This document shows, piece by piece, positions 3,176 through 32,681 of a DNA stretch of 36,046 nt. The DNA lies in contig CANQLI010000014.1 in assembly GCA_947624675.1 (NCBI GenBank), positions 1 through 36,046 on the forward strand. The letters are read 5' to 3'. Each line of letters starts with the position of its first letter. Position 1 is the stretch's first letter. Made by a program: the position numbers and the translations under genes. The stretch is from an uncultured Clostridia bacterium (GTDB lineage Bacteria > Bacillota > Clostridia > Oscillospirales > Ruminococcaceae). The notes under the pieces were generated by a model. The model saw only the letters and a program-made list of their open reading frames with translations. It was not told where the DNA came from and ran no database searches.

Positions 3176-3225
3176 CTGATATTTTTTTGTTGATGCAAAA
3201 CGATCGACACTTGAATACAAATAGT

Positions 3226-3256
3226 TTTCCCCTTACAAAATACCTGTAAGGGGAAA
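3226..3256. terminator. Hairpin between convergent spo0A and prsA-like gene
   Basis: TTTCCCCTTACA (3226-3237) and TGTAAGGGGAAA (3245-3256) form a perfect 12-bp stem. T tracts are weak on either side. Its position between convergent genes suggests a bidirectional terminator. Confidence 0.55.
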
Positions 3257-3316
3257 CTTAACTAAACACATTTCTTAAAAAGTAATACAATAAACCTGTA
3301 TCAATTAGATATGCGG

Positions 3317-3336
3317 TTATAATTGTGCAATTATAA
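3317..3336. repeat. AT-rich palindrome
   Basis: TTATAATTG (3317-3325) and CAATTATAA (3328-3336) are perfect inverted arms with a 2-bp centre, in the gap between convergent genes. No function can be assigned; it may help end transcription. Confidence 0.35.
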
Positions 3337-3405
3337 TGGTTGATCATTATTGTGCTGCAATTTTAGTATGAAACTCCTATACCTTTTCCATATTATCTAA
3401 CAGCG

Positions 3406-4653
3406 TCATTTTAAATCACCATACTGAAGATTTTTTAAAATATCAGATTCCTCTACTTTTATAGTTGCCAAAAGCTTATCTAAAGTGTTAAACTCCAAAG
3501 CAGATACATATTCATCCTTAAATGTATTATCAGAATCCTCGTCCTCTATATTCTTTTTTATATATTCTCTGTCAAACGGAACTCTTTTGATAATATGATA
3601 TCCATAACCCGTTTCAACAAGATCACTTATCTCGTTCTGTTTAAGAGCAACAGAGGCTTTTGTAAAGTTTTCTTCATAAGTGGTGTAAAAATCTCCAACA
3701 AGATACCCACCGGAATATTCAGTCATTCCTCCGTCGTAACCATACTCATTTATAAGGCTGTCGAAATCTTCACCGTCCCGCACCTTTTTAAGAATATCCT
3801 CAGCATACTTTTTTGCCTTATCTTTTTCCTTTTTCTGCTCGTCCTCAGAAAGACTTGCATAAGCAGTCGGTAAGATGCTCATCTTCTGTGCTCTTGTCAT
3901 TGATGAAAAATTAGTTACACCCATACTGCTCAACATATCTGCATCAGGTGTAATATCATATCCAAATGGTATCAAAATATGCTTTACAAGCACAAGCTTA
4001 TCCTCTGCCGTGTCAAGGAACTCATCATCCGAAAGTTTAAAGCTATCCTGGACCTTCTGAGCAAGCTTAGACTGTTGGACTATCTTTTTGAAATAGTCCT
4101 CAGTGAGATAAAGCTGTTTGAGATAATCTGAATACTTATCCTTCTGTTCCTCTTTTATCTTTTCTATCTCTTCATCGCATTTCTTTTTTTCATCATCAGT
4201 AAGCGAAATACCGTTTTCCTTTGCATATTTTGAATACACATATGAGGTTTTTATAAATGACATAATATTTGTCTTGAGCGTCTCAAAGCGCTCTTTTTTT
4301 TCGTCCCCACTAAGCTTTGACATATCCTCGTCAGTAACTCCTAAATTTGCTCCGTAATTTGAAATAAAGTAGTAATAATTATATCGATACTCATCAAAGC
4401 CAATATCGTTACCATCAACAGTGCACAAAACAAGCTCTTTTGTGTCTACTTCTTTTCCATTCAAAGTAAGGCTAGGGTCTGGAGGTTCTGTGGCTTCCTC
4501 CTCAGTGGTCTCTGAAGTTGTATCTGAGGAGCTTGTCACTAAACTGTCAGATGACGATTTTTTGCTTGAGGAATCATCGTCTGAACAAGCACTGAGTAAG
4601 CCCGAAACTAACAGAAGAGATATACATACAGCCAGTATTTTTTTCTTCATCAT
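3406..4653 (-). CDS. Lipoprotein peptidyl-prolyl isomerase (PrsA/SurA-like foldase)
   Basis: 415 residues from the first ATG of MMKKKIL, chosen because AAAGGA lies 7-8 nt upstream; a longer frame to 4689 has no such support. A signal peptide ends in a lipobox (LLSAC), followed by a Ser/Thr/Glu-rich linker, so the protein is probably anchored outside the membrane. A helical, Lys/Glu-rich chaperone region comes next, then a parvulin-type domain (LVLVKHILIPFG; GEDFDSLINEYG; FTKASVALKQNEISDLVET; GYGYHIIKR). Members fold exported proteins. It sits 59 bp after the gatB::aspS fusion with no clear terminator between, so it may share that transcript although the functions are unrelated. Confidence 0.85.
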   Translation of the reverse strand: MMKKKILAVCISLLLVSGLLSACSDDDSSSKKSSSDSLVTSSSDTTSETTEEEATEPPDPSLTLNGKEVDTKELVLCTVDGNDIGFDEYRYNYYYFISNYGANLGVTDEDMSKLSGDEKKERFETLKTNIMSFIKTSYVYSKYAKENGISLTDDEKKKCDEEIEKIKEEQKDKYSDYLKQLYLTEDYFKKIVQQSKLAQKVQDSFKLSDDEFLDTAEDKLVLVKHILIPFGYDITPDADMLSSMGVTNFSSMTRAQKMSILPTAYASLSEDEQKKEKDKAKKYAEDILKKVRDGEDFDSLINEYGYDGGMTEYSGGYLVGDFYTTYEENFTKASVALKQNEISDLVETGYGYHIIKRVPFDREYIKKNIEDEDSDNTFKDEYVSALEFNTLDKLLATIKVEESDILKNLQYGDLK

Positions 4654-4712
4654 TAAAAATCCTTTCAAATAGCCATTAAATAAAGACATTATTGTGAAAC
4701 CTTCAGGATAAA

Positions 4713-7583
4713 TTATGGTAAAAGCCTGTTAATATCTCTCGGGAACATTGAAGCTGTTCTTATGTTCTGAGCTTTTATAAGCTTCATCAACAGTCTCTCA
4801 AGTCCTATTCCAAGACCGCCGTGCGGAGGAAGTCCGTACTTGTGGGCCTCAAGATAGTTTTCAAAGTCTTTAGGGTCAAGACCTTGGCGCATCATTTTTT
4901 CGACCTGCTCGTCATAATCATGTATTCTCTGTCCACCCGAAGTTATTTCAAGCCCTCTGAATAAAAGGTCAAACTTATACGCAACTCTTTTATCCTCTCT
5001 GCTGTCCATTGCGTAAAACGGAGGCTTTGAGCTTGGAAAATGTGTAATAAAGATAAAATCCGAATCATACTTTTCCTTTGCATATTCTCCAAGTTTTACC
5101 TCATCCTCCGGATCAAGATCAAACTTTGTGCTTACGCTCTTTCCTCTCAACAAAGTTAAAGCATCAGAAAACTTTATTGACGGGATCTCTCCGACATTTG
5201 GAACATCAACTTCTAAAAGGTTAACCTCATATTCATAGTTTTTCTTTATATATTCCATTATATGACGAAGCATTGCTGTTTCCATATTCATAACATCATA
5301 CATACTGTCGATATATCCCATCTCGAAATCAAGACCGATATATTCGTTTATATGACGACTTGTGGCATGCTTTTCAGCCCTGTAAACGGGTGCTATCTCA
5401 TAAACTCTGTCAAAAAACGCAACCGCCGCCTGTTTGTAAAACTGAGGTGACTGATTTAAAAACGCAGGCTTCTGAAAGTAATCTATCTTAAAAATATTTG
5501 CGCCGCCCTCTGCACCTTGTGCAACGATTTTCGGCGTGTGGATCTCTGTAAAGCCGTTTGCCCGCATAAACTCGTGCATACCGTGCACGATTCCCTCCTG
5601 GAGCTTAAACACAGCTCTTTCATAAGGATTCCTCAAAGAAACATTTCTGTTATCAAGATTTACTTCTATTGAACAATCAAGCTTTCTCTGATAGATTTTA
5701 AGCGGATACTCCTCCTTCGGCTTTGAAATAAGACTTATGTTTTCAAGCACTATCTCAACGCCGTTTAAGTCCTTCGGATTTTCATTTACAATTCCGCTGA
5801 CCCTTACATACTGACCCTCTCTGAGCCCCTCAATAGAGTCCTTACATCTGTCAGAATATACCGCCTGAACAACATACTCCCCTGTTCTCAGCGCTATAAA
5901 CGAAACCTTACCAAGATTTTTGATTCGGTGAACACATGCGGAAAGCGAAATACTTTCACCGATATGCTCGGTAGCATCAGTAAGTTTGAATTCCGGGAGA
6001 ACATCTTTTCCTCCGACCATTTTAAAGTATTCACCATCGTTCGTTGGCTGATACATATCATAATTTTTATATACAGTCAACTTATCAGTGTTCTTTTCTT
6101 CGCTTATCTCCGTCTCTGTTTTTACTTCAGAATCGTCCGCTGCTGCATTTTTAAGTTTGTTTTCTAGGCGCTCTTTTATTACCTTTGGTGTGGCAACACC
6201 TTTAAGCGCCTTTGTCAAGCTTCCCATAAAAAATCCGAAAACCTTTTGCTCACCGTTTTTGTACTGTGAGACCTGCGTCTTACTTTCATCTAAAAGCTTA
6301 TCTATTGCCTCATCCACCTTATCTGTGTCTACAATGATGAGATAGCCCTCATTTTTCGCAATATCAAGAGGTTTTTGCGAAGTCTCGACCATTTTTCTGA
6401 AAATAGCTTTAGCGTCGTTTTTAGAAACCTTTTCTTCGTCGGACATTTTAACAAGCTCCGCAAAATCAGACGGCGTAAAGTTTAGGCTGTTAACATCTAT
6501 CTCTCCAAGATTTATTCTTCTCATAAATTCTGTCAATACAAAAGCGCATACACTCTTCGGATTATTATAAGTCTTGAGTGACTCGTCAAAAAAGTCTGAG
6601 ATTATCTTGTTTCCTATAAGTATCTTAGCATCCGACTGAGAAAGTCCATACTCATTTGTATATCTCAATATTCTTTTATTCGGGAGCTCAGGAAGTTTTG
6701 ACTTAATATCATCAAGCATCTCATCCGTAAAGTTGACCTGCAAAATATCAGGCTCGGGAAAATAACGATAGTCGTGAGCATTCTCCTTATTTCTCATAGA
6801 TTTTGTTTCATCTCGGTTATCGTTATATCTTCTGGTTTCCTGAATCACTCTTTTTCCCGCATCAAGAAGGAGCGCCTGACGCCTTTCCTCATATTCAATA
6901 GCTCTTCCTACCGCCTTAATTGAATTCAGGTTTTTGATTTCAGCTCGCGTGCCAAACTCTTTGTCCTCAGGTTTCATAAGAGAAATATTTACATCACACC
7001 TCAATGAACCCTGCTCCATTTTACAGTCGCACACTCCCGCATACTGAAGCAAAAGTGAAATCTGTTCTACAAAAGCTTTAGCCTCCTCAGCGGAAGAAAT
7101 ATCCGGCTCTGTTACTATCTCTATGAGCGGGATGCCGCAGCGGTTGTAGTCAGCAAGAGACACTCCGTTAAAATCGTCGTGAACGAGCTTTCCTGCGTCC
7201 TCTTCTAAGTGTATTCTGTTTATTCTTATGTTCTTCTTTTTTCCGTCTACCTCTATTGGAACAAGTCCGTTTATACAAAGAGGAAGATTGAGCTGTGAAA
7301 TCTGATATGCTTTTGGAAGGTCGGGATAAAAATAGTTTTTTCTGTCAAAAACAGAAAACTTATTGATGTCGCAATTTAGTGCAAATCCCGCTTTTACCGC
7401 ATACTCAACTGCCGTCTGGTTTATGACCGGCAATGTTCCCGGCATTCCCGAACATACGGGACAGCATCTTGTATTCTGATCTCCGCCAAACTCAGCGCTA
7501 CAGGTACAGAAAACCTTTGATTTTGTCAAAAGCTCTGCGTGTATTTCAAGACCTATTACAGTTATATACTTGGAATTTTTCAT
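4713..7583 (-). CDS. GatB fused to archaeal-type aspartyl-tRNA synthetase
   Basis: One open frame of 956 residues. Residues 1 to about 478 are a complete GatB: the ITVIGLEIHAEL start, zinc-type cysteines (FCTCS and CCPVCSGMPG), the QGSLRCDVN and GTRAEIKNLNS segments, and the helical plus YqeY-like tail (QKVFGFFMGSLTKA). A charged linker (about 479-505) leads into a complete class II AspRS: OB-fold anticodon domain (CVHRIKNLGKVSF), GAEGGANIF, motif 2 (YRAEKHATSRH) and motif 3 (GLGIGLERLLM) at the very C-terminus. It lacks the large insertion of bacterial AspRS, so it is archaeal-type. The ATG at 7583 is preceded by GAAAGG. It lies 26 bp after gatA in gatC-gatA order. Known logic: a non-discriminating AspRS makes Asp-tRNA(Asn), which GatCAB amidates. 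No frameshift or stop interrupts the join. Confidence 0.92.
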   Translation of the reverse strand: MKNSKYITVIGLEIHAELLTKSKVFCTCSAEFGGDQNTRCCPVCSGMPGTLPVINQTAVEYAVKAGFALNCDINKFSVFDRKNYFYPDLPKAYQISQLNLPLCINGLVPIEVDGKKKNIRINRIHLEEDAGKLVHDDFNGVSLADYNRCGIPLIEIVTEPDISSAEEAKAFVEQISLLLQYAGVCDCKMEQGSLRCDVNISLMKPEDKEFGTRAEIKNLNSIKAVGRAIEYEERRQALLLDAGKRVIQETRRYNDNRDETKSMRNKENAHDYRYFPEPDILQVNFTDEMLDDIKSKLPELPNKRILRYTNEYGLSQSDAKILIGNKIISDFFDESLKTYNNPKSVCAFVLTEFMRRINLGEIDVNSLNFTPSDFAELVKMSDEEKVSKNDAKAIFRKMVETSQKPLDIAKNEGYLIIVDTDKVDEAIDKLLDESKTQVSQYKNGEQKVFGFFMGSLTKALKGVATPKVIKERLENKLKNAAADDSEVKTETEISEEKNTDKLTVYKNYDMYQPTNDGEYFKMVGGKDVLPEFKLTDATEHIGESISLSACVHRIKNLGKVSFIALRTGEYVVQAVYSDRCKDSIEGLREGQYVRVSGIVNENPKDLNGVEIVLENISLISKPKEEYPLKIYQRKLDCSIEVNLDNRNVSLRNPYERAVFKLQEGIVHGMHEFMRANGFTEIHTPKIVAQGAEGGANIFKIDYFQKPAFLNQSPQFYKQAAVAFFDRVYEIAPVYRAEKHATSRHINEYIGLDFEMGYIDSMYDVMNMETAMLRHIMEYIKKNYEYEVNLLEVDVPNVGEIPSIKFSDALTLLRGKSVSTKFDLDPEDEVKLGEYAKEKYDSDFIFITHFPSSKPPFYAMDSREDKRVAYKFDLLFRGLEITSGGQRIHDYDEQVEKMMRQGLDPKDFENYLEAHKYGLPPHGGLGIGLERLLMKLIKAQNIRTASMFPRDINRLLP

Positions 7584-7609
7584 AACTTTCAAACCTTTCA
7601 ACAATTAAG

Positions 7610-9061
7610 TTAGATCGTCGGCATTATTCTTTCAAAGCCCTGTTCAAAACTGTCTGCAATCTGAATGATCGTCTGTTCATCAAACTGCTTTCCGATTATA
7701 GACATACCTATCGGCAGACCCTTTCCGTCATATCCGCAAGGAGTCGATATTGCGGGAAGCCCTGCAATATTTACCGTAACGGTACATATATCGGCCTGAT
7801 ACATCTTTACAGGATCACTTATGTTTTCGTTACACCTGTATGCAGTCGTCGGAGCGGTCGGAGTAAGAACAGCATCACACTTTGCAAAAATATCGTTATA
7901 CTCTTTCCTGATAAGCTGCTTAAGAGCCATAGCCTTTCCGTAATAAGCGTCATAATATCCGCTTGAAAGCGCATAGTTACCTAAGAGTATCCTTCTCTTT
8001 ACCTCATCGCCAAAGCCCTCACGCCTTGAATTTTTAATAAGCTCCTCATAGCTTGAACCTATTTCGGACCTATGACCGTATTTTATTCCATCGTATCTTG
8101 AAAGATTAGAACAAGCCTCCGCTGATGATATGAGATAATATGCCGCTGTCGCATATTTTAGCGATGGCATAGAGCATTCTACAAGCTCTGCTCCCATACT
8201 TTTATACATATCAGCAGCTTTTAAAACGCTGTCTCTTACTTCTTCGTCAATACCCTCAGCGTAAAACTCCTTTGGAAGAGCAATTTTTATACCCTTTATA
8301 TCTTTGCCGATTTTTGCGGTAAAGTCAGGTACATCTCTTTTTGAGCTTGTGCCGTCATGAGGGTCAAAGCCACAGATGTGATTTAAAATCAAAGCACAGT
8401 CGTGACTGTCTCTTGCGATTGGTCCTATCTGGTCAAGCGATGAAGCAAACGCTACCAGCCCGTACCTTGAAACTCTCGAATATGTTGGCTTTAATCCCGT
8501 CACTCCGCAAAAGCTTGACGGTTGCCTTATTGAACCTCCCGTATCAGAGCCCAGCGCCGCAAGGCACAAATCTGCTGAAACCGCACTTGCCGAACCTCCG
8601 GAAGAACCTCCGGGAACTCTGTTTTTGTCATATGGATTTTTTGTTTTCTTAAAAGCAGATGTCTGTGTGGATCCGCCCATTGCAAACTCGTCAAGAGAAA
8701 CCTTTCCGAGCATAACTATTCCCTCTTTGTCAAGTCGTTCCATAACCGTTGCGTTATAAGGCGGAATAAAATCCTCCAGCATCTTAGACGAACAGGTGGT
8801 AAGCACTCCCTCAGTACATATGTTATCCTTTATCGCCATAGGGATACCTGTAAGATCAGTTGCTTCTCCCCTATCGATTTTTTTCTGAGCTTCGTCAGCC
8901 TGTTTAAGCGCATTATCCTCTGTTACTGTTATATAGCACTCAAGCTCATCGTCGTAAGCCTTTATCCTCTTAAGATACTCTTCAGTTATTTCCCTGACAG
9001 ACACCTGTTTTTCATCAAGAGCTTTTCTTAGTTCTCTTATCTTCAATCCTCTTATCTCCAC
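7610..9061 (-). CDS. gatA: Asp/Glu-tRNA amidotransferase subunit A
   Basis: 483 residues, the normal GatA length. It is an amidase-signature enzyme that releases ammonia from Gln or Asn for the GatB transamidation site. The Ser-cisSer-Lys triad is present: Lys78 (GIPMAIKDN), Ser153 (PGGSSGGSAS) and Ser177 (DTGGSIRQP). The EFAMGGS segment is also typical. It lies between gatC (14-bp gap) and the gatB::aspS fusion (26-bp gap), all in one operon with a promoter before gatC. The fused AspRS suggests the physiological substrate is mainly Asp-tRNA(Asn), but Glu-tRNA(Gln) cannot be excluded. Confidence 0.97.
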   Translation of the reverse strand: MEIRGLKIRELRKALDEKQVSVREITEEYLKRIKAYDDELECYITVTEDNALKQADEAQKKIDRGEATDLTGIPMAIKDNICTEGVLTTCSSKMLEDFIPPYNATVMERLDKEGIVMLGKVSLDEFAMGGSTQTSAFKKTKNPYDKNRVPGGSSGGSASAVSADLCLAALGSDTGGSIRQPSSFCGVTGLKPTYSRVSRYGLVAFASSLDQIGPIARDSHDCALILNHICGFDPHDGTSSKRDVPDFTAKIGKDIKGIKIALPKEFYAEGIDEEVRDSVLKAADMYKSMGAELVECSMPSLKYATAAYYLISSAEACSNLSRYDGIKYGHRSEIGSSYEELIKNSRREGFGDEVKRRILLGNYALSSGYYDAYYGKAMALKQLIRKEYNDIFAKCDAVLTPTAPTTAYRCNENISDPVKMYQADICTVTVNIAGLPAISTPCGYDGKGLPIGMSIIGKQFDEQTIIQIADSFEQGFERIMPTI

Positions 9062-9075
9062 TAGCCCTTATCCTC

Positions 9076-9354
9076 CTATTCCACTACCTTAGGCACAACA
9101 AAACAGTTGCGCTGATTTTTTGCATTCTGCAAAAGCTTTGAGGTCTCAAGGCTCTGAGATTTCTCATCAATGCGCAAATCGTTCAGATAAATGTTTTTAT
9201 TGTCAAGAACAGGGTCATATGTCACATCAATTTCCTTTACCGTATCCATAAGCTTGATTATACTTGTCATATCCTCGCTTGCTTTTTTAAGTTCTTCATC
9301 AGTAAATTCAAGCTTTCCAAGCTCTGCCAGATATTTTATCATATCAAGATCCAT
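9076..9354 (-). CDS. gatC: Asp/Glu-tRNA amidotransferase subunit C
   Basis: 92 residues from ATG 9354, which has AAGGTGAGG just upstream; an in-frame extension to 9420 would overlap the promoter and is rejected. It shows the GatC pattern: N-terminal helix MIKYLAELGKLEFTDEEL, IIKLMDTVKEIDV in the middle, then a C-terminal part (PVLDNKNIYLNDLR...) that normally wraps around GatA. It stabilises the GatA-GatB complex. First gene of the gatC-gatA-gatB::aspS operon. Confidence 0.93.
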   Translation of the reverse strand: MDLDMIKYLAELGKLEFTDEELKKASEDMTSIIKLMDTVKEIDVTYDPVLDNKNIYLNDLRIDEKSQSLETSKLLQNAKNQRNCFVVPKVVE

Positions 9355-9410
9355 ACTTTGCCTCACCTTTCTTTTACTATCAAGGGTATATTTCCCAATA
9401 CTAAGTATAT

Positions 9411-9439
9411 ATTGTACCACAACAATGTTTATTTTGCAA
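9411..9439 (-). promoter_or_regulatory. Promoter of gatC operon
   Basis: Minus strand TTGCAA (9434-9439), 17 bp, TACAAT (9411-9416), giving a leader of about 50 nt before the gatC ATG. Confidence 0.7.
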
Positions 9440-9459
9440 GCAAAAGTGCTTAAAAAATA

Positions 9460-9495
9460 AAGACACCAAGGCTTAATGAAAGACCCCGGTGTCTT
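9460..9495 (-). terminator. Terminator of ackA
   Basis: AAGACACC (9460-9467) pairs with GGTGTCTT (9488-9495). On the minus strand it is followed by TTTATTTTTT. Confidence 0.75.
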
Positions 9496-9524
9496 AAAAT
9501 CACATTATTTAAACATTGAACAGG

Positions 9525-10721
9525 TTACTTTGATATAAGTTCAAGCGTATCTCTTGCGATAAGAAGCTCCTCGTTTGTTGGAATTACCCAGACTTCCGTT
9601 TTGGAATCAGGTGCTGAGATCTTGACAAGCTTGCCCTTACAGTCATTTGCGCTTAAGTCTAGTTTGATGCCAAAGTAATCCATATCCGCACATACATCCA
9701 CCCTGACATCAGGAGCATTCTCTCCGATACCTCCGGTAAAGATTATAACATCAAGCCCGTTCATTACAGCGGCATAAGAGCCAATGTACTTTTTGATGTC
9801 ATAAACGAGCATTTCCTTTGCTAGAAGCGCTCTTTCGTTTCCTTCATCAGCCGCAGCGGAAACATCTCTGTTGTCGCTCGACACGCCCGAAACACCGAGG
9901 AATCCCGATTTTTTGTTCATATAATCGCTCATCTCGCCTGTTGTAAACCCATGCTTTTGTGCGACAAAAGTGACAGCAGACGGATCGATCGCACCTGTCC
10001 TTGTTCCCATCAGTAACCCGTCAAGAGGTGTAAATCCCATAGAGGTGTCTACGCTTTTCCCGTCCTTAACAGCCGTTATTGATGAACCGTTACCAAGGTG
10101 ACAGGTAACTATGTTAAGCCCCTCAAGGCTCTTTCCTGTTTCCTTTGCATACTTTGCGGTAACAAATCTGTGACTTGTTCCGTGAAATCCGTATTTTCTT
10201 ACAGCATATTTCTCATAATCCTCGTAAGGAAGTCCGTACATAAACGCCTTTTTTGGCATTGTCTGATGAAAAGCGGTATCAAATACGACTACCTGAGGAG
10301 TTGTCTTTGGAATTACCTTTGAGCAAGCTCTTAGTGCAAGTGCGTGAGCGTGATTATGCACAGGCGCCAGATCTCTTAATTCATCTATCTTATCAATTAT
10401 CTCATCTGTTACAAGACAAGGCTTGTCAAAAACCTCAGCGCCCTGAACGATTCTGTGTCCGACCGCTGATATTTCAGACATCGAAGAAATTACTGACGCT
10501 TCTCCTGTTGTTAATACCTCAACAAGCTTTTCAAAGGCCTCTGTGTGAGTAGGAAAATCACAATCTGCCGAATACTCTCTTCCGTCAAAGGTCTTGTGAG
10601 AAATGTGACCGTCAATTCCTATTCTGTCACAGTTTCCCTTTGCGATAACGCTTTCGTCCTCCATATTGAGAAGCTGATACTTTAACGACGAGCTTCCTGC
10701 ATTTACGACTAAAATCTTCAT
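9525..10721 (-). CDS. ackA: Acetate kinase
   Basis: 398 residues, the usual length. It interconverts acetyl phosphate and ADP with acetate and ATP, the main energy-yielding last step of acetate fermentation. ASKHA-fold signatures are clear: NAGSSSLKYQLL at the N-terminus, GHRIVQGAE, FDTAFHQTMP, KYGFHGTSHRFV, CHLGNGSSITAV, GTRTGAIDPSA and FTGGIGENAP. The ATG is preceded by AAAAGGAG. It has its own promoter and terminator and no adjacent pta. It is divergent from tmcAL, whose enzyme uses acetate and ATP; whether this proximity matters is only a guess. Confidence 0.97.
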   Translation of the reverse strand: MKILVVNAGSSSLKYQLLNMEDESVIAKGNCDRIGIDGHISHKTFDGREYSADCDFPTHTEAFEKLVEVLTTGEASVISSMSEISAVGHRIVQGAEVFDKPCLVTDEIIDKIDELRDLAPVHNHAHALALRACSKVIPKTTPQVVVFDTAFHQTMPKKAFMYGLPYEDYEKYAVRKYGFHGTSHRFVTAKYAKETGKSLEGLNIVTCHLGNGSSITAVKDGKSVDTSMGFTPLDGLLMGTRTGAIDPSAVTFVAQKHGFTTGEMSDYMNKKSGFLGVSGVSSDNRDVSAAADEGNERALLAKEMLVYDIKKYIGSYAAVMNGLDVIIFTGGIGENAPDVRVDVCADMDYFGIKLDLSANDCKGKLVKISAPDSKTEVWVIPTNEELLIARDTLELISK

Positions 10722-24381: not shown

Positions 24382-26271
24382 ATGAAGAGATTGTGCTTTG
24401 CGGTTTTAGCGAGAAGCATAGACGAATCCTACCCTACCGATGTTTTGGAGGGAATTATTACTCAGGCATATTCTCTAGGCTGTGATATTGCGGTTTTCAG
24501 TATGTTTGATGAGAATAATTATCTTCCTGAAAACTTTGACGGAGAGAAAAATATTTATAAGCTGATAAACCCTGAAAAATTTGATGGGTTTATGATCCCC
24601 GGCGCACTGTTTAACGATTCCGATCTGAGAAACGAGCTGTTTGAAATGCTTAAAAACACTGGAAAACCTGTTGTAAGTGTTGACTATTCGACAGATTTGT
24701 TTCCTTGTGTTTTAAAGGACGAAAAGACTCCGTTTAAAGATATTATCTCACATCTTACCGATGTTCACGGCTTTACCGACATAATGTGCCTTACAGGTCT
24801 TAAGGATACCTTTCAGGCGGAAGAAAGACTCACGGCATATAAGGAATTTATGGCAGAGCGCGGGCTTAAGATAAGAGAAGACCGCTGTATTTACGGTGAC
24901 TACTGGGCAGATGCAGCTTATAATCTTGCCGAAAATATACACATTGGAAAAATTAAAAAGCCGGAGGCGCTTGTCTGTGCAAATGACAGAATGGCTATGT
25001 TTTTCATTGAAAGATTTACACAGCTTGGACATAAGGTCCCCGAAGAGATAGCTGTTGTCGGATATGACGGTATACCCGAGTCAAGAGACAATGTTCCTAC
25101 TATCTGCACATATAAAGTCCCGGATGCTCAGGTAGGAGCGGAAGGCTGCGCTAAGCTTTACGAGATAGTGACCGGAAAAAAGTGTGAAACAATAAATCTT
25201 CACAGCGGCTTTGTAATTGAGGGAGAAAGCTGCGGCTGCCTTGAGGACAATTCGGAAAATGTCCGTGAGATGCGAAAGCGCATAAGACAAGAACAGATAT
25301 GCAGAGAGTTTTTCCGCACGGCAAATATGTTCGAGTGCCTTGCTAACGCCGCGACTATGAACGACTTTATAGATCATCTTCAAAAAACACCGTATATCTT
25401 CGGTGCGGGAGATAATGATTACGCTTACGATCTTTGCCTTTGTAAGGATTGGGACTCTCTTGATTCACAAAATAACTATATAAAGGTAGGCTATTCAAAT
25501 CAGATGCTTGCCTCCTGCAGAGATGTTGATAAGCGCTTTACTTTTGATGCAAAAGAGGTTTTCCCGCCGATGTGGGAACAAAGAGATGTACCTAACACAT
25601 TTTTCTTTTTCCCCGTTCATTTCAACAACAGATGTCTCGGATTTTCTGTAGTATGGCAAAGCGCATCAAATGTAGTTTGTGGAAAGACCTTCTGGGATTG
25701 GCACAAGGCACTTACTAACGGACTTGAGTTTCAACGCACAAAGATATGCCTTGAAAGCCTTAACCACATAACCTATTTAAACTCGATAAAGGATAAGCTT
25801 ACCGGGATCTACAATAGAAGAGGCTACGACAAGTACGCCGACGAGTTTATGCAAAGCGCAAAACAACAGGGCAAAAAGTTTATGCTTATTTCCTGTGATA
25901 TGGACGGTCTGAAATACATAAACGATACCTTCGGACACCTCGAAGGTGATGTTTCACTACGAATAATCGCAAACGGATTAAGCTATGTATGTTTAAACAA
26001 CGAGATCTGTGCAAGAGTCGGAGGCGATGAGTTTGTAGTTATCGGATACGGAGATTACACAGAAAAGTCAGCTCTCGCTATGATAGATCAATTTGAAAGG
26101 TATCTGAAGCGTTATAATGACGCAAATGACAACAAGTACACAGTAGACGCTTCAACGGGCTTTGTCATCTGCGACATAAACGACGATACCGAGCTTGAAG
26201 ATGTTTTAAAGAAAGCTGACAAGCTTATGTATGAAAATAAATTTTCAAAGCCTAACAGGCACAAAAGATAA
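24382..26271 (+). CDS. Diguanylate cyclase with LacI-type ligand-sensing domain
   Basis: 629 residues, no signal peptide or membrane segment, so cytoplasmic. Residues 1 to about 285 form a LacI/GalR-type periplasmic-binding-fold sensor (FDGFMIPGALFND; EALVCANDRMAMF; VPEEIAVVGYDGIPES; GFVIEGESCGC) without the N-terminal DNA-binding helix-turn-helix. A linker/helical region (about 290-455) follows, then a GGDEF domain (about 465-625): KLTGIYNRRGYDKY, CDMDGLKYINDTFGHLEGD and an intact GGDEF at 547-551. It should make cyclic di-GMP from GTP under control of a small ligand, plausibly a sugar. No RxxD inhibitory site is apparent five residues before GGDEF. GAGGGG precedes the ATG. Confidence 0.93.
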   Translation: MKRLCFAVLARSIDESYPTDVLEGIITQAYSLGCDIAVFSMFDENNYLPENFDGEKNIYKLINPEKFDGFMIPGALFNDSDLRNELFEMLKNTGKPVVSVDYSTDLFPCVLKDEKTPFKDIISHLTDVHGFTDIMCLTGLKDTFQAEERLTAYKEFMAERGLKIREDRCIYGDYWADAAYNLAENIHIGKIKKPEALVCANDRMAMFFIERFTQLGHKVPEEIAVVGYDGIPESRDNVPTICTYKVPDAQVGAEGCAKLYEIVTGKKCETINLHSGFVIEGESCGCLEDNSENVREMRKRIRQEQICREFFRTANMFECLANAATMNDFIDHLQKTPYIFGAGDNDYAYDLCLCKDWDSLDSQNNYIKVGYSNQMLASCRDVDKRFTFDAKEVFPPMWEQRDVPNTFFFFPVHFNNRCLGFSVVWQSASNVVCGKTFWDWHKALTNGLEFQRTKICLESLNHITYLNSIKDKLTGIYNRRGYDKYADEFMQSAKQQGKKFMLISCDMDGLKYINDTFGHLEGDVSLRIIANGLSYVCLNNEICARVGGDEFVVIGYGDYTEKSALAMIDQFERYLKRYNDANDNKYTVDASTGFVICDINDDTELEDVLKKADKLMYENKFSKPNRHKR

Positions 26272-30033: not shown

Positions 30034-30580
30034 GTGTCTTACATTAAAAAACAATCAACAATATACTGGATGAATAAACGGGGGTAATATGTACCTTCCC
30101 GCAATCCAGCGGAAATATGTATGGAGTGAAAATCAGATTACGCGGCTTATGGATTCTATTATGTTAAATTATCCAATTGGCACATTCCTGCTGTGGAAAG
30201 TCAAGCGCAATATAGTCAATGATAAACAATACTCCATGTATGAGTTCATTCGAGATTATCACGAACGGGACACATATAAGAACCCTGCCGCCCCGAACCC
30301 GTTTTCGGCAACAGGCAAATATGACTTTATATGGGCTGTTCTCGATGGCCAGCAACGATTAACTTCACTTTACATAGCATTGCAAGGAAGTATGAGACGC
30401 AAACTTCCTATGAAACGCTGGACAAATGACGATGCCTTTCCTAAAAAGGAACTATACTTTAATTTGCACAGTGAAAAGCAAACTGAGGACGATGAAGTCA
30501 CATATGAGTTTGCGTTTCTGACTGCCGACGAAAGCAAAGTGCAGAATAAAATACAATTTAGCGATAGCCTCGTTGCTTGA
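30034..30580 (+). pseudogene. Broken DUF262-family gene
   Basis: A GTG at 30034, behind TAGGAGG, starts VSYIKKQSTIYWMNKRG and hits TAA at 30085. A different frame from 30089 continues MYLPAIQRKYVWSENQITRL, GTFLLWKVKR, and AVLDGQQRLTSLYIALQ, the DUF262 DGQQRLT nucleotide-related motif, and stops at 30578-30580, far short of a full protein. A frameshift or deletion near 30075-30089 and a missing C-terminal half indicate decay. DUF262 proteins include restriction of modified DNA (GmrS/GmrD type) and other defence enzymes. Confidence 0.75.
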
Positions 30581-30691: not shown

Positions 30692-31258
30692 ATGAGTAAT
30701 TTAAAGAAAAAGGATACCTATGTAAAGAAAAAAAAAGACATGAACTTTCAGAGTGTGGACTCTATGCAGTCAGTAGTTAATGTTGTAAATGAGGCTGCAG
30801 CGGCTCTAAATGATAAAAACCGTACCATTAAAAAGAGTGCTATTCCAGAAGTGCTTGCAGGTGCATTAGGAGCCGGCATAGGAGGAATAGGTTCTTTTGC
30901 CGCCCTTTACGGTCTTGGTGTTGTAGGACTTTCTGCAGCAGGCATTACATCTGGTCTTGCTACCGCTGGAGCCATTGTAGGAGGCGGCATGGTGGCTGGT
31001 GTATTTGTTCTTGCCGCACCTGTTGCGGGCCTTGCCGCTGCTGGGGTTGGAGTTGCCTCACATTTAAAGAATAAACAGCTACGACAGGAGAAAGAGCGTT
31101 TATACAAAGAAGCATTGAGAAAACATGACGCTATAATAAATGCGATGAAAGCGGAGATTGATGCAGATAAAGAACGTTTGGATTACTTGCAGAGTCTTAA
31201 TATTCTGCTTCAGCAAGCTATAAAAGATTTACAGCACGATCTTGGAATCACAGCATAA
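30692..31258 (+). CDS. Unknown Gly/Ala-rich membrane protein with coiled coil
   Basis: 188 residues, family not recognised. The Lys-rich N-terminus (1-30) and a soluble helix (35-50) precede a long hydrophobic Gly/Ala region (about 53-122; LGAGIGGIGSFAALYGLGVV, ATAGAIVGGGMVAGVFVLA) that could form a glycine-zipper hairpin of two membrane helices. A charged coiled coil follows (125-185; RQEKERLYKEALRKHDAI). This layout is like small pore-forming or membrane-anchoring partners in bacterial conflict systems, but no homology is claimed. AAAGGAG precedes the ATG. After its TAA (31256) the same frame stays open for 21 codons, to a TAA that overlaps the start of the next gene. Confidence 0.75.
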   Translation: MSNLKKKDTYVKKKKDMNFQSVDSMQSVVNVVNEAAAALNDKNRTIKKSAIPEVLAGALGAGIGGIGSFAALYGLGVVGLSAAGITSGLATAGAIVGGGMVAGVFVLAAPVAGLAAAGVGVASHLKNKQLRQEKERLYKEALRKHDAIINAMKAEIDADKERLDYLQSLNILLQQAIKDLQHDLGITA

Positions 31259-31316
31259 TCTGTGATTCATAAATTTAAAAAGCAGATTGTTGAACTTGAG
31301 AAAAAGAAGGCAGACA

Positions 31317-32681
31317 ATGAGTAAATATAAATATTCTGAAACAGAGCAGCAAATCAATGATGTCCTGAAATATCATGATGAAGAACTGAAAAAAATCAAA
31401 GCCGCACGGCCTTCTACTTCTGAGCTTGACAGTAGAATTCAAGAAAGTGAAGACTTGCTTCGAATGCTGGGATATACGGAAATGCCAATGGTATCAAAGC
31501 GAGAAGAACCGAAGAAAGTGATGGTAGTGCCATCGTGGGAGAATTTATGTTTTGAAGCAGAACAGGCTGTCGGCTCCGGTCACGCGCTTGAATCAATTTT
31601 TACTGAAGAAGAGCTTAAACAAAATCGACAAGAAATCAGTATGCTTAACGCTGAGTATGATCAGCTTCATCATTTAGACAGGTATGATATAGCGATTAGT
31701 GTCGCTGCAGGATTGCTTGGAGCAGCTGTAGATATCTTGCTGGTAGGTATTCCGAAAAAAACACCTGAAGGGTTAAAGGGCGGTCCTCTTGCAAATTATA
31801 TCAGGGACTGGTTTGACAAGAAATTTCCACAAGAAGAGATGGAAAAGCTAGCTAATTCTAAGGCTAGCAAAGTTCCCTATGATGCACAGGATAATCGAAA
31901 CACATCCGTATATGTTGAAGGGCTGTCCGCATATTATCATCGGTTGCTTTCACTTGGGCATGATCCGTTGCTTGGATTAATATTTGGTGTGACAGACATA
32001 CTGACGGGGAGAATGACCACTATTGATAAGACGGGTAAAATCGTGTCGCAGGTTATGAAGAATTATGCTGATCGAAAAGAAACAGACATTTTTGCTGCCA
32101 TAGCAAAACAGATTATTCATTTCAAATCGGACATAACAACCTCAATGGGTCTTCCGGCTCCAATGATGGGATTATTTAATCTTCTGCAATTTGGAAAAAT
32201 CGGAGAATACGAGCAGACTATTGCAGAGATTGTGCAGGGTATGTATTACGAGGGATACGACTTTATCCATTTCTGTACATTATCTATTCCTGTTATGATT
32301 GTTGAAGTTGTGACTCGTATAGGGTACGCTTTCAAACGAATCAAAGAAGGATACTCTGTAAAAGAGTCTATTCCGTTTTCTCTCAATCGGGAAAAATATC
32401 CCAAACTTGCAACGATGTTATTTGTTGGACATTCAGCAGCAACTGCTGTTAACGCAGGAAAAGTATATTTTACACATAATCCAAAGGCAATCAACTATCC
32501 CCAGTGGATTGCCTTTGCGAAATATTCATTTAAACAACTTAAGTGGGCTTTAATGGAAAAGCCAAAAACGCGAGACGCTTATGTTCATGGTAAGTTGAAC
32601 GAGCAGCTTTCTGAAGTGCTTGAGGATGTAGATTCCACATTCAATGAAATATCAACAAACTATATTGTTGTAATTGAGTAG
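31317..32681 (+). CDS. Unknown 454-residue partner protein of the module
   Basis: Start ATG 31317 (MSKYKYSETEQQ) is chosen for AGAAGG six bases upstream. I do not recognise the family. The N-terminal ~60 residues and the EEELKQNRQEISMLNAEYDQ region look coiled-coil. A hydrophobic stretch IAISVAAGLLGAAVDILLVG (about 133-152) and LSIPVMIVEVVTRIGYAF could sit in a membrane. Other segments (LSLGHDPLLGLIFGVTDIL; FVGHSAATAVNAGKVYF) resemble no motif I can name. No nuclease, NTPase or protease signature is seen. Close spacing with the preceding membrane protein and a shared terminator suggest a two-protein unit; toxin/immunity or phage defence are guesses from the location only. Confidence 0.75.
   Translation: MSKYKYSETEQQINDVLKYHDEELKKIKAARPSTSELDSRIQESEDLLRMLGYTEMPMVSKREEPKKVMVVPSWENLCFEAEQAVGSGHALESIFTEEELKQNRQEISMLNAEYDQLHHLDRYDIAISVAAGLLGAAVDILLVGIPKKTPEGLKGGPLANYIRDWFDKKFPQEEMEKLANSKASKVPYDAQDNRNTSVYVEGLSAYYHRLLSLGHDPLLGLIFGVTDILTGRMTTIDKTGKIVSQVMKNYADRKETDIFAAIAKQIIHFKSDITTSMGLPAPMMGLFNLLQFGKIGEYEQTIAEIVQGMYYEGYDFIHFCTLSIPVMIVEVVTRIGYAFKRIKEGYSVKESIPFSLNREKYPKLATMLFVGHSAATAVNAGKVYFTHNPKAINYPQWIAFAKYSFKQLKWALMEKPKTRDAYVHGKLNEQLSEVLEDVDSTFNEISTNYIVVIE

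Follow-up and report, generated by a model that had tools for sequence, protein, structure and literature searches.

A natural gatB::aspS fusion gene in an uncultured Clostridia bacterium, likely encoding a covalent asparagine transamidosome

The window analysed here, i.e., the whole stretch of 36,046 nucleotides of contig CANQLI010000014.1 from an uncultured Clostridia bacterium (assembly GCA_947624675.1), encodes a single protein in which GatB, a subunit of the amidotransferase GatCAB, is joined to an aspartyl-tRNA synthetase (AspRS) of the archaeal type (Table 1). The open frame extends from 4713 to 7604 on the minus strand, and translation from the ATG at 7583 yields 956 amino acids with no internal stop. 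An earlier note on this DNA had claimed that both enzymes are complete in one unbroken protein, and this is borne out by curated models. Residues 5-479 match the GatB model NF004012 with 621.6 bits (cut-off 338) and contain the Pfam domains PF02934 (GatB_N, 8-290) and PF02637 (GatB_Yqey, 330-477). Residues 536-956 match NF003483, aspartate--tRNA(Asn) ligase, with 532.1 bits (cut-off 353), and the AspRS half also exceeds the threshold of TIGR00458 (387.1 bits, cut-off 368.4), with an OB fold (PF01336, tRNA_anti-codon, 547-618) followed by a class II core (PF00152, tRNA-synt_2, 640-950). The bacterial GAD insertion domain, the lack of which is a criterion for archaeal-type AspRSs (excerpt of PMC4206432), is not among the four Pfam families detected in the fusion protein (E 0.001). 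The best match of the AspRS half in the PDB is the non-discriminating AspRS2 of the Thermus thermophilus transamidosome crystal (1n9w/3kfu; 347 bits). Directly upstream of the fusion gene, on the same strand, lie gatC and gatA, both over their cut-offs, in agreement with the gene order first described.

Table 1. Features of the fusion locus, in window positions
Feature	Position	Strand	Basis
gatB::aspS fusion gene, 956 aa	4713..7583	-	Single open frame; both halves exceed curated cut-offs
GatB half, residues 1-478	6150..7583	-	
Linker, residues about 479-521 (~43 residues), charged	6021..6149	-	Alignment, structure model, dN/dS
Archaeal-type AspRS half, residues about 522-956	4716..6020	-	NF003483, TIGR00458, PF01336, PF00152
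gatA	7610..9061	-	TIGR00132, 615.5 bits (cut-off 481.1)
gatC	9076..9357	-	TIGR00135, 51.6 bits (cut-off 47.1)
Promoter-like site TTGCAA-17-TACAAT, TG before second hexamer	9411..9439	-	Upstream of gatC; consensus match only

The GatB-AspRS fusion is a real, conserved and recurrent natural gene. In a family sample of 197 genomes, the window's own included, it is unbroken in 18 genomes from 12 genera, namely the window's own, two congeneric ones and 15 others (frames were checked and the 18 genes aligned), and it was also found on contig L074 of Ruminococcus sp. RGIG8501 (Oscillospiraceae by NCBI ranks). Three close pairs of fused genes show strong purifying selection on both halves, with ratios of nonsynonymous to synonymous substitution rates (dN/dS) of 0.006-0.05. 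Other relatives have gatB and aspS as adjacent but separate genes, with a stop or an overlap between them (L023, L025-L032, L152-L157, L162 and L165), and four genomes (G090, G118, G177 and G194) have no archaeal aspS after gatB and carry it on another contig. Outside the family, the fusion occurs in none of the 29 loci read (L183-L211), the GatB frame stopping after 469-511 residues in each of them, and among the matches listed, strongest first, from a class-wide sample of 391 genomes, the sole unbroken full-length one is the window's own. At four further loci (L167-L170), what comes after gatA and a gatB of the window's GatB type is a separate frame of some 600 amino acids in place of the archaeal aspS; in the two loci covered by the scan (L168 and L170) its product exceeds the cut-off for a bacterial-type AspRS, and a swap of the partner synthetase seems to have taken place.

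The fused proteins do not form one clade in phylogenetic trees. Two changes are needed in the AspRS tree of 41 rows (approximately unbiased test, p = 0.007) and three in the GatB tree (p = 1.3e-5 with 31 rows and 2.0e-5 with 36 rows), showing that joining and/or splitting recurred, either as repeated joining or as a single joining with later splits and exchange. The linkers of the two fused clades, A and B, match well when the AspRS start is included. Without it, a hidden Markov model (HMM) from clade A placed one of seven B linkers above all 500 shuffles, and an HMM from clade B placed four of 11 A linkers above all 500, a similarity too mixed to choose between a single and a multiple origin. 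In a quick tree of 89 GatB rows, with AspRS neighbours called by sequence pattern and no HMM, the window's GatB is one of 43 rows that make up a lineage, and 33 of these have an archaeal-type AspRS as neighbour or fusion partner; a second GatB of the same genome falls among the other 46 rows, six of which have such an AspRS, and the dividing branch has a Shimodaira-Hasegawa-like approximate likelihood ratio support of 99. This distribution supports the view that the window's GatB lineage is dedicated to an AspRS partner. In one genus, the fused locus L010 (genome G009) and the split locus L023 (genome G128) have GatB halves that are sisters and AspRS halves that are not, which suggests that an AspRS half was replaced.

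The linker had been placed by the earlier note at residues 479-505; it is indeed charged, but its end lies nearer to residue 521 (Table 1), with residue 522 being a methionine at about the start site of AspRS in unfused relatives. Residues 484-522 have a predicted local distance difference test score (pLDDT) below 50 in the predicted structure, and the linker is probably flexible. With a dN/dS of about 0.2-0.3 in the same three pairs, calculated on only 48-49 linker codons, it reads as a translated, loosely constrained sequence that drifts yet keeps the frame. The short motif K-L-T/S-x-Y/N-x-N/H...Y/F-x-P, encoded at 6045-6086 (linker residues about 500-513), recurs among the linkers of the window's clade, and to a weak degree among those of the other fused clade, in a linker that otherwise evolves fast.

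The earlier note had proposed to search the source genome (2.08 Mb, 49 contigs, 99.99% complete) for asnS, asparagine synthetase and a second, bacterial-type aspS. Nothing in this genome scores as AsnRS over the cut-off, the best AsnRS-like matches being the fusion itself, then LysRS, then the bacterial AspRS; two AsnB-like proteins were found, as was a bacterial AspRS of 593 residues. The single tRNA-synt_1c protein is GluRS, and the genome therefore has no GlnRS. A second GatCAB is encoded on another contig, in the order ligA-gatC-gatA-gatB, and its GatB is 50% identical to that of the window. Of the 42 tRNA matches, 30 were read; in these, U1-A72 is present in tRNA-Asn(GUU), together with G73, and in both tRNA-Gln, and tRNA-Asp, longer by one base, has G1-C72. 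U1-A72 is the amidation signal, and G1-C72 and U20a are antideterminants (excerpt of PMC9976931). Hence AspRS, GatCAB and a tRNA(Asn) with U1-A72 all occur in one genome, and, as this genome has the U1-A72 signal on tRNA-Asn and no AsnRS, the Asn-tRNA of this organism must be made by amidation. That the fused enzyme performs this route is the economical inference.

We consider it likely that the fusion is a natural covalent asparagine transamidosome and the organism's route to Asn-tRNA. The AspRS half would bind tRNA(Asn) and attach Asp to it, after which the CCA end would shift to the tethered GatB for amidation with ammonia from GatA, both GatA and GatC coming from the same operon; the second GatCAB would serve tRNA(Gln). 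The flexible linker would provide permanent attachment in place of tRNA-dependent assembly, so that the misacylated intermediate would likely be amidated before the elongation factor EF-Tu captures it. Since non-discriminating AspRSs are dimers (excerpt of PMC9976931), a (GatCAB-AspRS)2 particle would be expected. The archaeal transamidosome has no GAD domain (excerpt of PMC9499178), and in the present protein the tether could compensate for the missing domain. The fusion and its conservation, the operon, the selection on the frame, the gene complement and the tRNA identity pair are observed; the AspRS specificity, the way in which the two GatCABs share the work, the dimer and the channelling are what we infer.

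The proposal of a covalently built transamidosome, put forward in the earlier note, is supported in part by the conservation of the fusion in a gatC-gatA operon, by the lack of AsnRS and by the nearness of the AspRS half to T. thermophilus AspRS2. The specificity of AspRSs is presumably linked to the positions W26 and K85 of the Thermococcus kodakarensis enzyme, which discriminates, whereas the AspRS of Sulfolobus tokodaii does not. At the W26 position the window has H552, aligned with His in both T. thermophilus and S. tokodaii, and His is found in 43 of the 44 rows compared (18/19 fused and 25/25 split), so that the histidine of the non-discriminating type, to which attention had been drawn, is in place. 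In bacteria with two AspRSs, the archaeal-type AspRS is the non-discriminating one (excerpt of PMC6523644, on T. thermophilus and Deinococcus radiodurans). The distribution of asnS also favours the proposal: no asnS passes the cut-off in 16 of the 18 genomes that carry the fusion, versus 51 of the 179 other family genomes (Fisher's test, p = 7e-7), three of these 51 (G047, G159 and G194) carrying a partial asnS. The rule is not a simple one, as split rows with an archaeal AspRS also lack asnS in nine of 20 cases. In each of three genera, a species with the fusion and without asnS contrasts with another whose asnS passes the cut-off and which gives no comparable match to the fusion (G027/G138, G065/G158 and G162/G071, the last involving a partial asnS).

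Several observations weigh against the fusion being a covalent transamidosome, a proposal drawn from sequence and gene content. The T. kodakarensis K85 position, which is Pro in T. thermophilus and S. tokodaii, is occupied by L606 in a gap-free alignment with equal loop lengths, and the proline invoked earlier as a mark of non-discrimination, P603, lies three residues off, so this argument falls. In a study of D. radiodurans AspRS2, only Pro at the K85 position reportedly supported the use of tRNA(Asn). In relatives the position holds Q, Y, F, S, I, A, V, P, R, N, K or E, Pro being found in three of the 44 rows compared, a total that includes the window with its Leu (Pro in 1/19 fused and 2/25 split), and the Lys of T. 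kodakarensis in two split rows, G090 and G177, both without asnS. The position thus predicts little in this family; and with the diagnostic Pro missing, the sequence does not certify a non-discriminating enzyme and leaves room for a discriminating one, one using other contacts, or a tRNA(Asn) specialist. Moreover, asnS is present in two of the fused genomes, G111 and G190, the association between fusion and lack of asnS is not significant once relatedness is counted, as only two phylogenetically independent pairs exist on the tree, split relatives manage without a tether, and the two AsnB-like proteins mean that free asparagine may arise by another route. Lastly, positions 31 and 82 of the bacterial AspRS (numbering that we take to be that of Pseudomonas aeruginosa for position 31) were compared in 90 proteins from a chosen part of the 197 genomes: 15 from fused genomes without asnS (G009, the sixteenth, was left out), six from split genomes without asnS, nine from genomes with archaeal AspRS and asnS, 25 from genomes with neither and 35 from genomes with asnS only. 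These positions did not reveal which AspRS charges tRNA(Asn), position 31 being L in 12 and K in 13 of the 25 neither-gene genomes, and L in 13, K in 20 and M in two of the 35 with asnS only; His was seen there in none of the 90 rows. Over the whole comparison, Lys stands at this position in 40 of the 90 proteins and in none of the 15 from fused genomes without asnS.

As the source genome is a draft in 49 contigs, a sequencing or assembly error might have joined two separate genes, but the chance of this is negligible given that this join recurs in 17 of the 196 other family genomes (two of them congeneric) and on L074, and that codon-level purifying selection acts on both halves in relatives; the join is no assembly slip. 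The product might also not be one polypeptide in the cell, if the linker were cleaved or if translation also began internally, at the relic Met522, to yield free AspRS. The window, like most members of its clade, keeps a methionine at the ancestral AspRS start, and the structure model has low confidence over the linker, both as this explanation would have it. However, Met is missing in L006 and L007, and 15 of the 18 fused genes, the window's included, have no Shine-Dalgarno-like word of at least four bases before any candidate internal start (three of the 15 have no such candidate), whereas GGAGG precedes the gatB ATG in 12 of the 18, the window, with a weak gatB site of its own, not being among them. 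We regard this explanation as quite improbable.

A less drastic alternative is that the join merely ensures co-expression and one-to-one stoichiometry, the enzymes acting as if apart with no handover of the intermediate. The many relatives with unfused gatB and aspS as operon neighbours, the fast evolution of the linker, and the split state of G128 in the same genus as fused G009 speak in its favour; the persistence of the in-frame fused form across 12 genera, joined or lost more than once, and the weak similarity in part between the linkers of the two fused clades speak against it, and we hold it to be unlikely. It could also be argued that the fused AspRS charges tRNA(Asp) only, while the bacterial-type AspRS makes the Asp-tRNA(Asn) that either GatCAB amidates. 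Besides the loss of the diagnostic Pro, this idea draws on 38 of the 197 genomes that match neither AsnRS nor archaeal-type AspRS (some are incomplete, and the ambiguous G046 was left out): these must use the bacterial AspRS or an unseen gene, and bacterial AspRSs here can therefore probably make Asp-tRNA(Asn). Yet it does not explain why an amidotransferase would carry a second AspRS, and it fits poorly with the conserved His and with a fusion found mainly in asnS-less genomes, which leaves it very improbable.

A further possibility, which we raise tentatively and regard as rather doubtful, is that the fused AspRS has become tRNA(Asn)-specific, since the diagnostic loop has diverged and the separate bacterial AspRS can serve tRNA(Asp). 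Together with GatA and GatC, the fusion would then make only Asn-tRNA(Asn) and never release Asp-tRNA(Asn), acting as a one-chain replacement for AsnRS. Such an enzyme would be for asparagine what the tRNA(Gln)-only GluRS2 is for glutamine, with its amidotransferase attached in the same chain, and it would be exchangeable with asnS between related species.

As for known systems, covalent links between a synthetase and an amidotransferase have precedents. The AspRS/GatC fusion NF009460 (PRK12820) likewise joins a synthetase to a GatCAB subunit, but there a bacterial-type AspRS is N-terminal and joined to GatC, whereas in the window an archaeal-type AspRS is C-terminal and joined to GatB; the window protein scores only 75.6 bits against NF009460 (cut-off 1379) and has no GatC domain. 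In a metagenome-assembled genome of Oscillospiraceae (L121:1630-6718), a bacterial AspRS-GatC fusion of 735 amino acids lies directly upstream of gatA and gatB, with NF001750 and TIGR00135 over cut-off and NF009460 at 641.9 bits, below its 1379. The Thermotoga maritima glutamine transamidosome 3al0 also has a tethered synthetase and amidotransferase (chain C, 'GatC,Linker,Glutamate--tRNA ligase 2'), which uses GluRS and GatC instead of AspRS and GatB, and which we take to have been built for crystallisation. The GlnRS-YqeY fusion NF011291 (PRK14703) is similar in combining a synthetase with a GatB-tail domain, but its synthetase is GlnRS, and the window protein matches the YqeY end of that model only. 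By contrast, in the T. thermophilus asparagine transamidosome (3kfu; AspRS2 1n9w), AspRS and GatCAB are separate chains joined by tRNA(Asn) (excerpt of PMC9499178), whereas in the window a peptide joins them, and the two specificity positions are His and Pro in T. thermophilus AspRS2 versus His and Leu in the window. The earlier note knew of no published description of a GatB-AspRS fusion, and we found none in the open-access literature (PMC), an absence that is weak evidence; the covalent link as such is preceded by NF009460, L121 and 3al0. The GatB-AspRS architecture differs from that of the AspRS-GatC fusions already catalogued, and both of its halves come from known families, GatB and archaeal-type AspRS.

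Whether transamidosomes truly hand over the mischarged tRNA, or raise its local concentration and no more, has to be argued from complexes that assemble and dissociate on tRNA. A natural single-chain form makes the effect of a tether directly testable, since its split sister proteins offer similar enzymes without one. If our proposal is true, the fusion would show how amidation-only bacteria escape Asn-to-Asp errors, as well as a way of replacing AsnRS.

Turning to the surroundings of the operon, the promoter-like site of Table 1 sits between an acetate kinase gene and gatC, so gatC-gatA-gatB::aspS may form its own transcription unit, a suggestion from a consensus match in a region (3200-9700) with 21 such sites versus a mean of 15.7 (standard deviation 3.8) in shuffled sequences. 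Starting 23 bases past the fusion stop, a gene at 3406-4689 encodes a protein with a PPIC-type isomerase domain. Clostridium acetobutylicum has an extra AspRS and GatCAB, like the clostridial second set of the window (Saad 2012, as cited in an excerpt of PMC4206432); that set is under T-box control by the title of Saad 2012, and the excerpt mentions no fusion. In the window, T-box control of this kind finds no support in an Rfam scan at gathering thresholds, which matched only a tRNA. Elsewhere in the window, a 629-residue protein (24382-26271) combines a LacI-type periplasmic-binding domain with a GGDEF diguanylate cyclase domain. A frame of 163 residues (30089-30580) matches part of the GmrSD_N model, and is followed by two frames (30692-31258 and 31287-32681) with no Pfam match.

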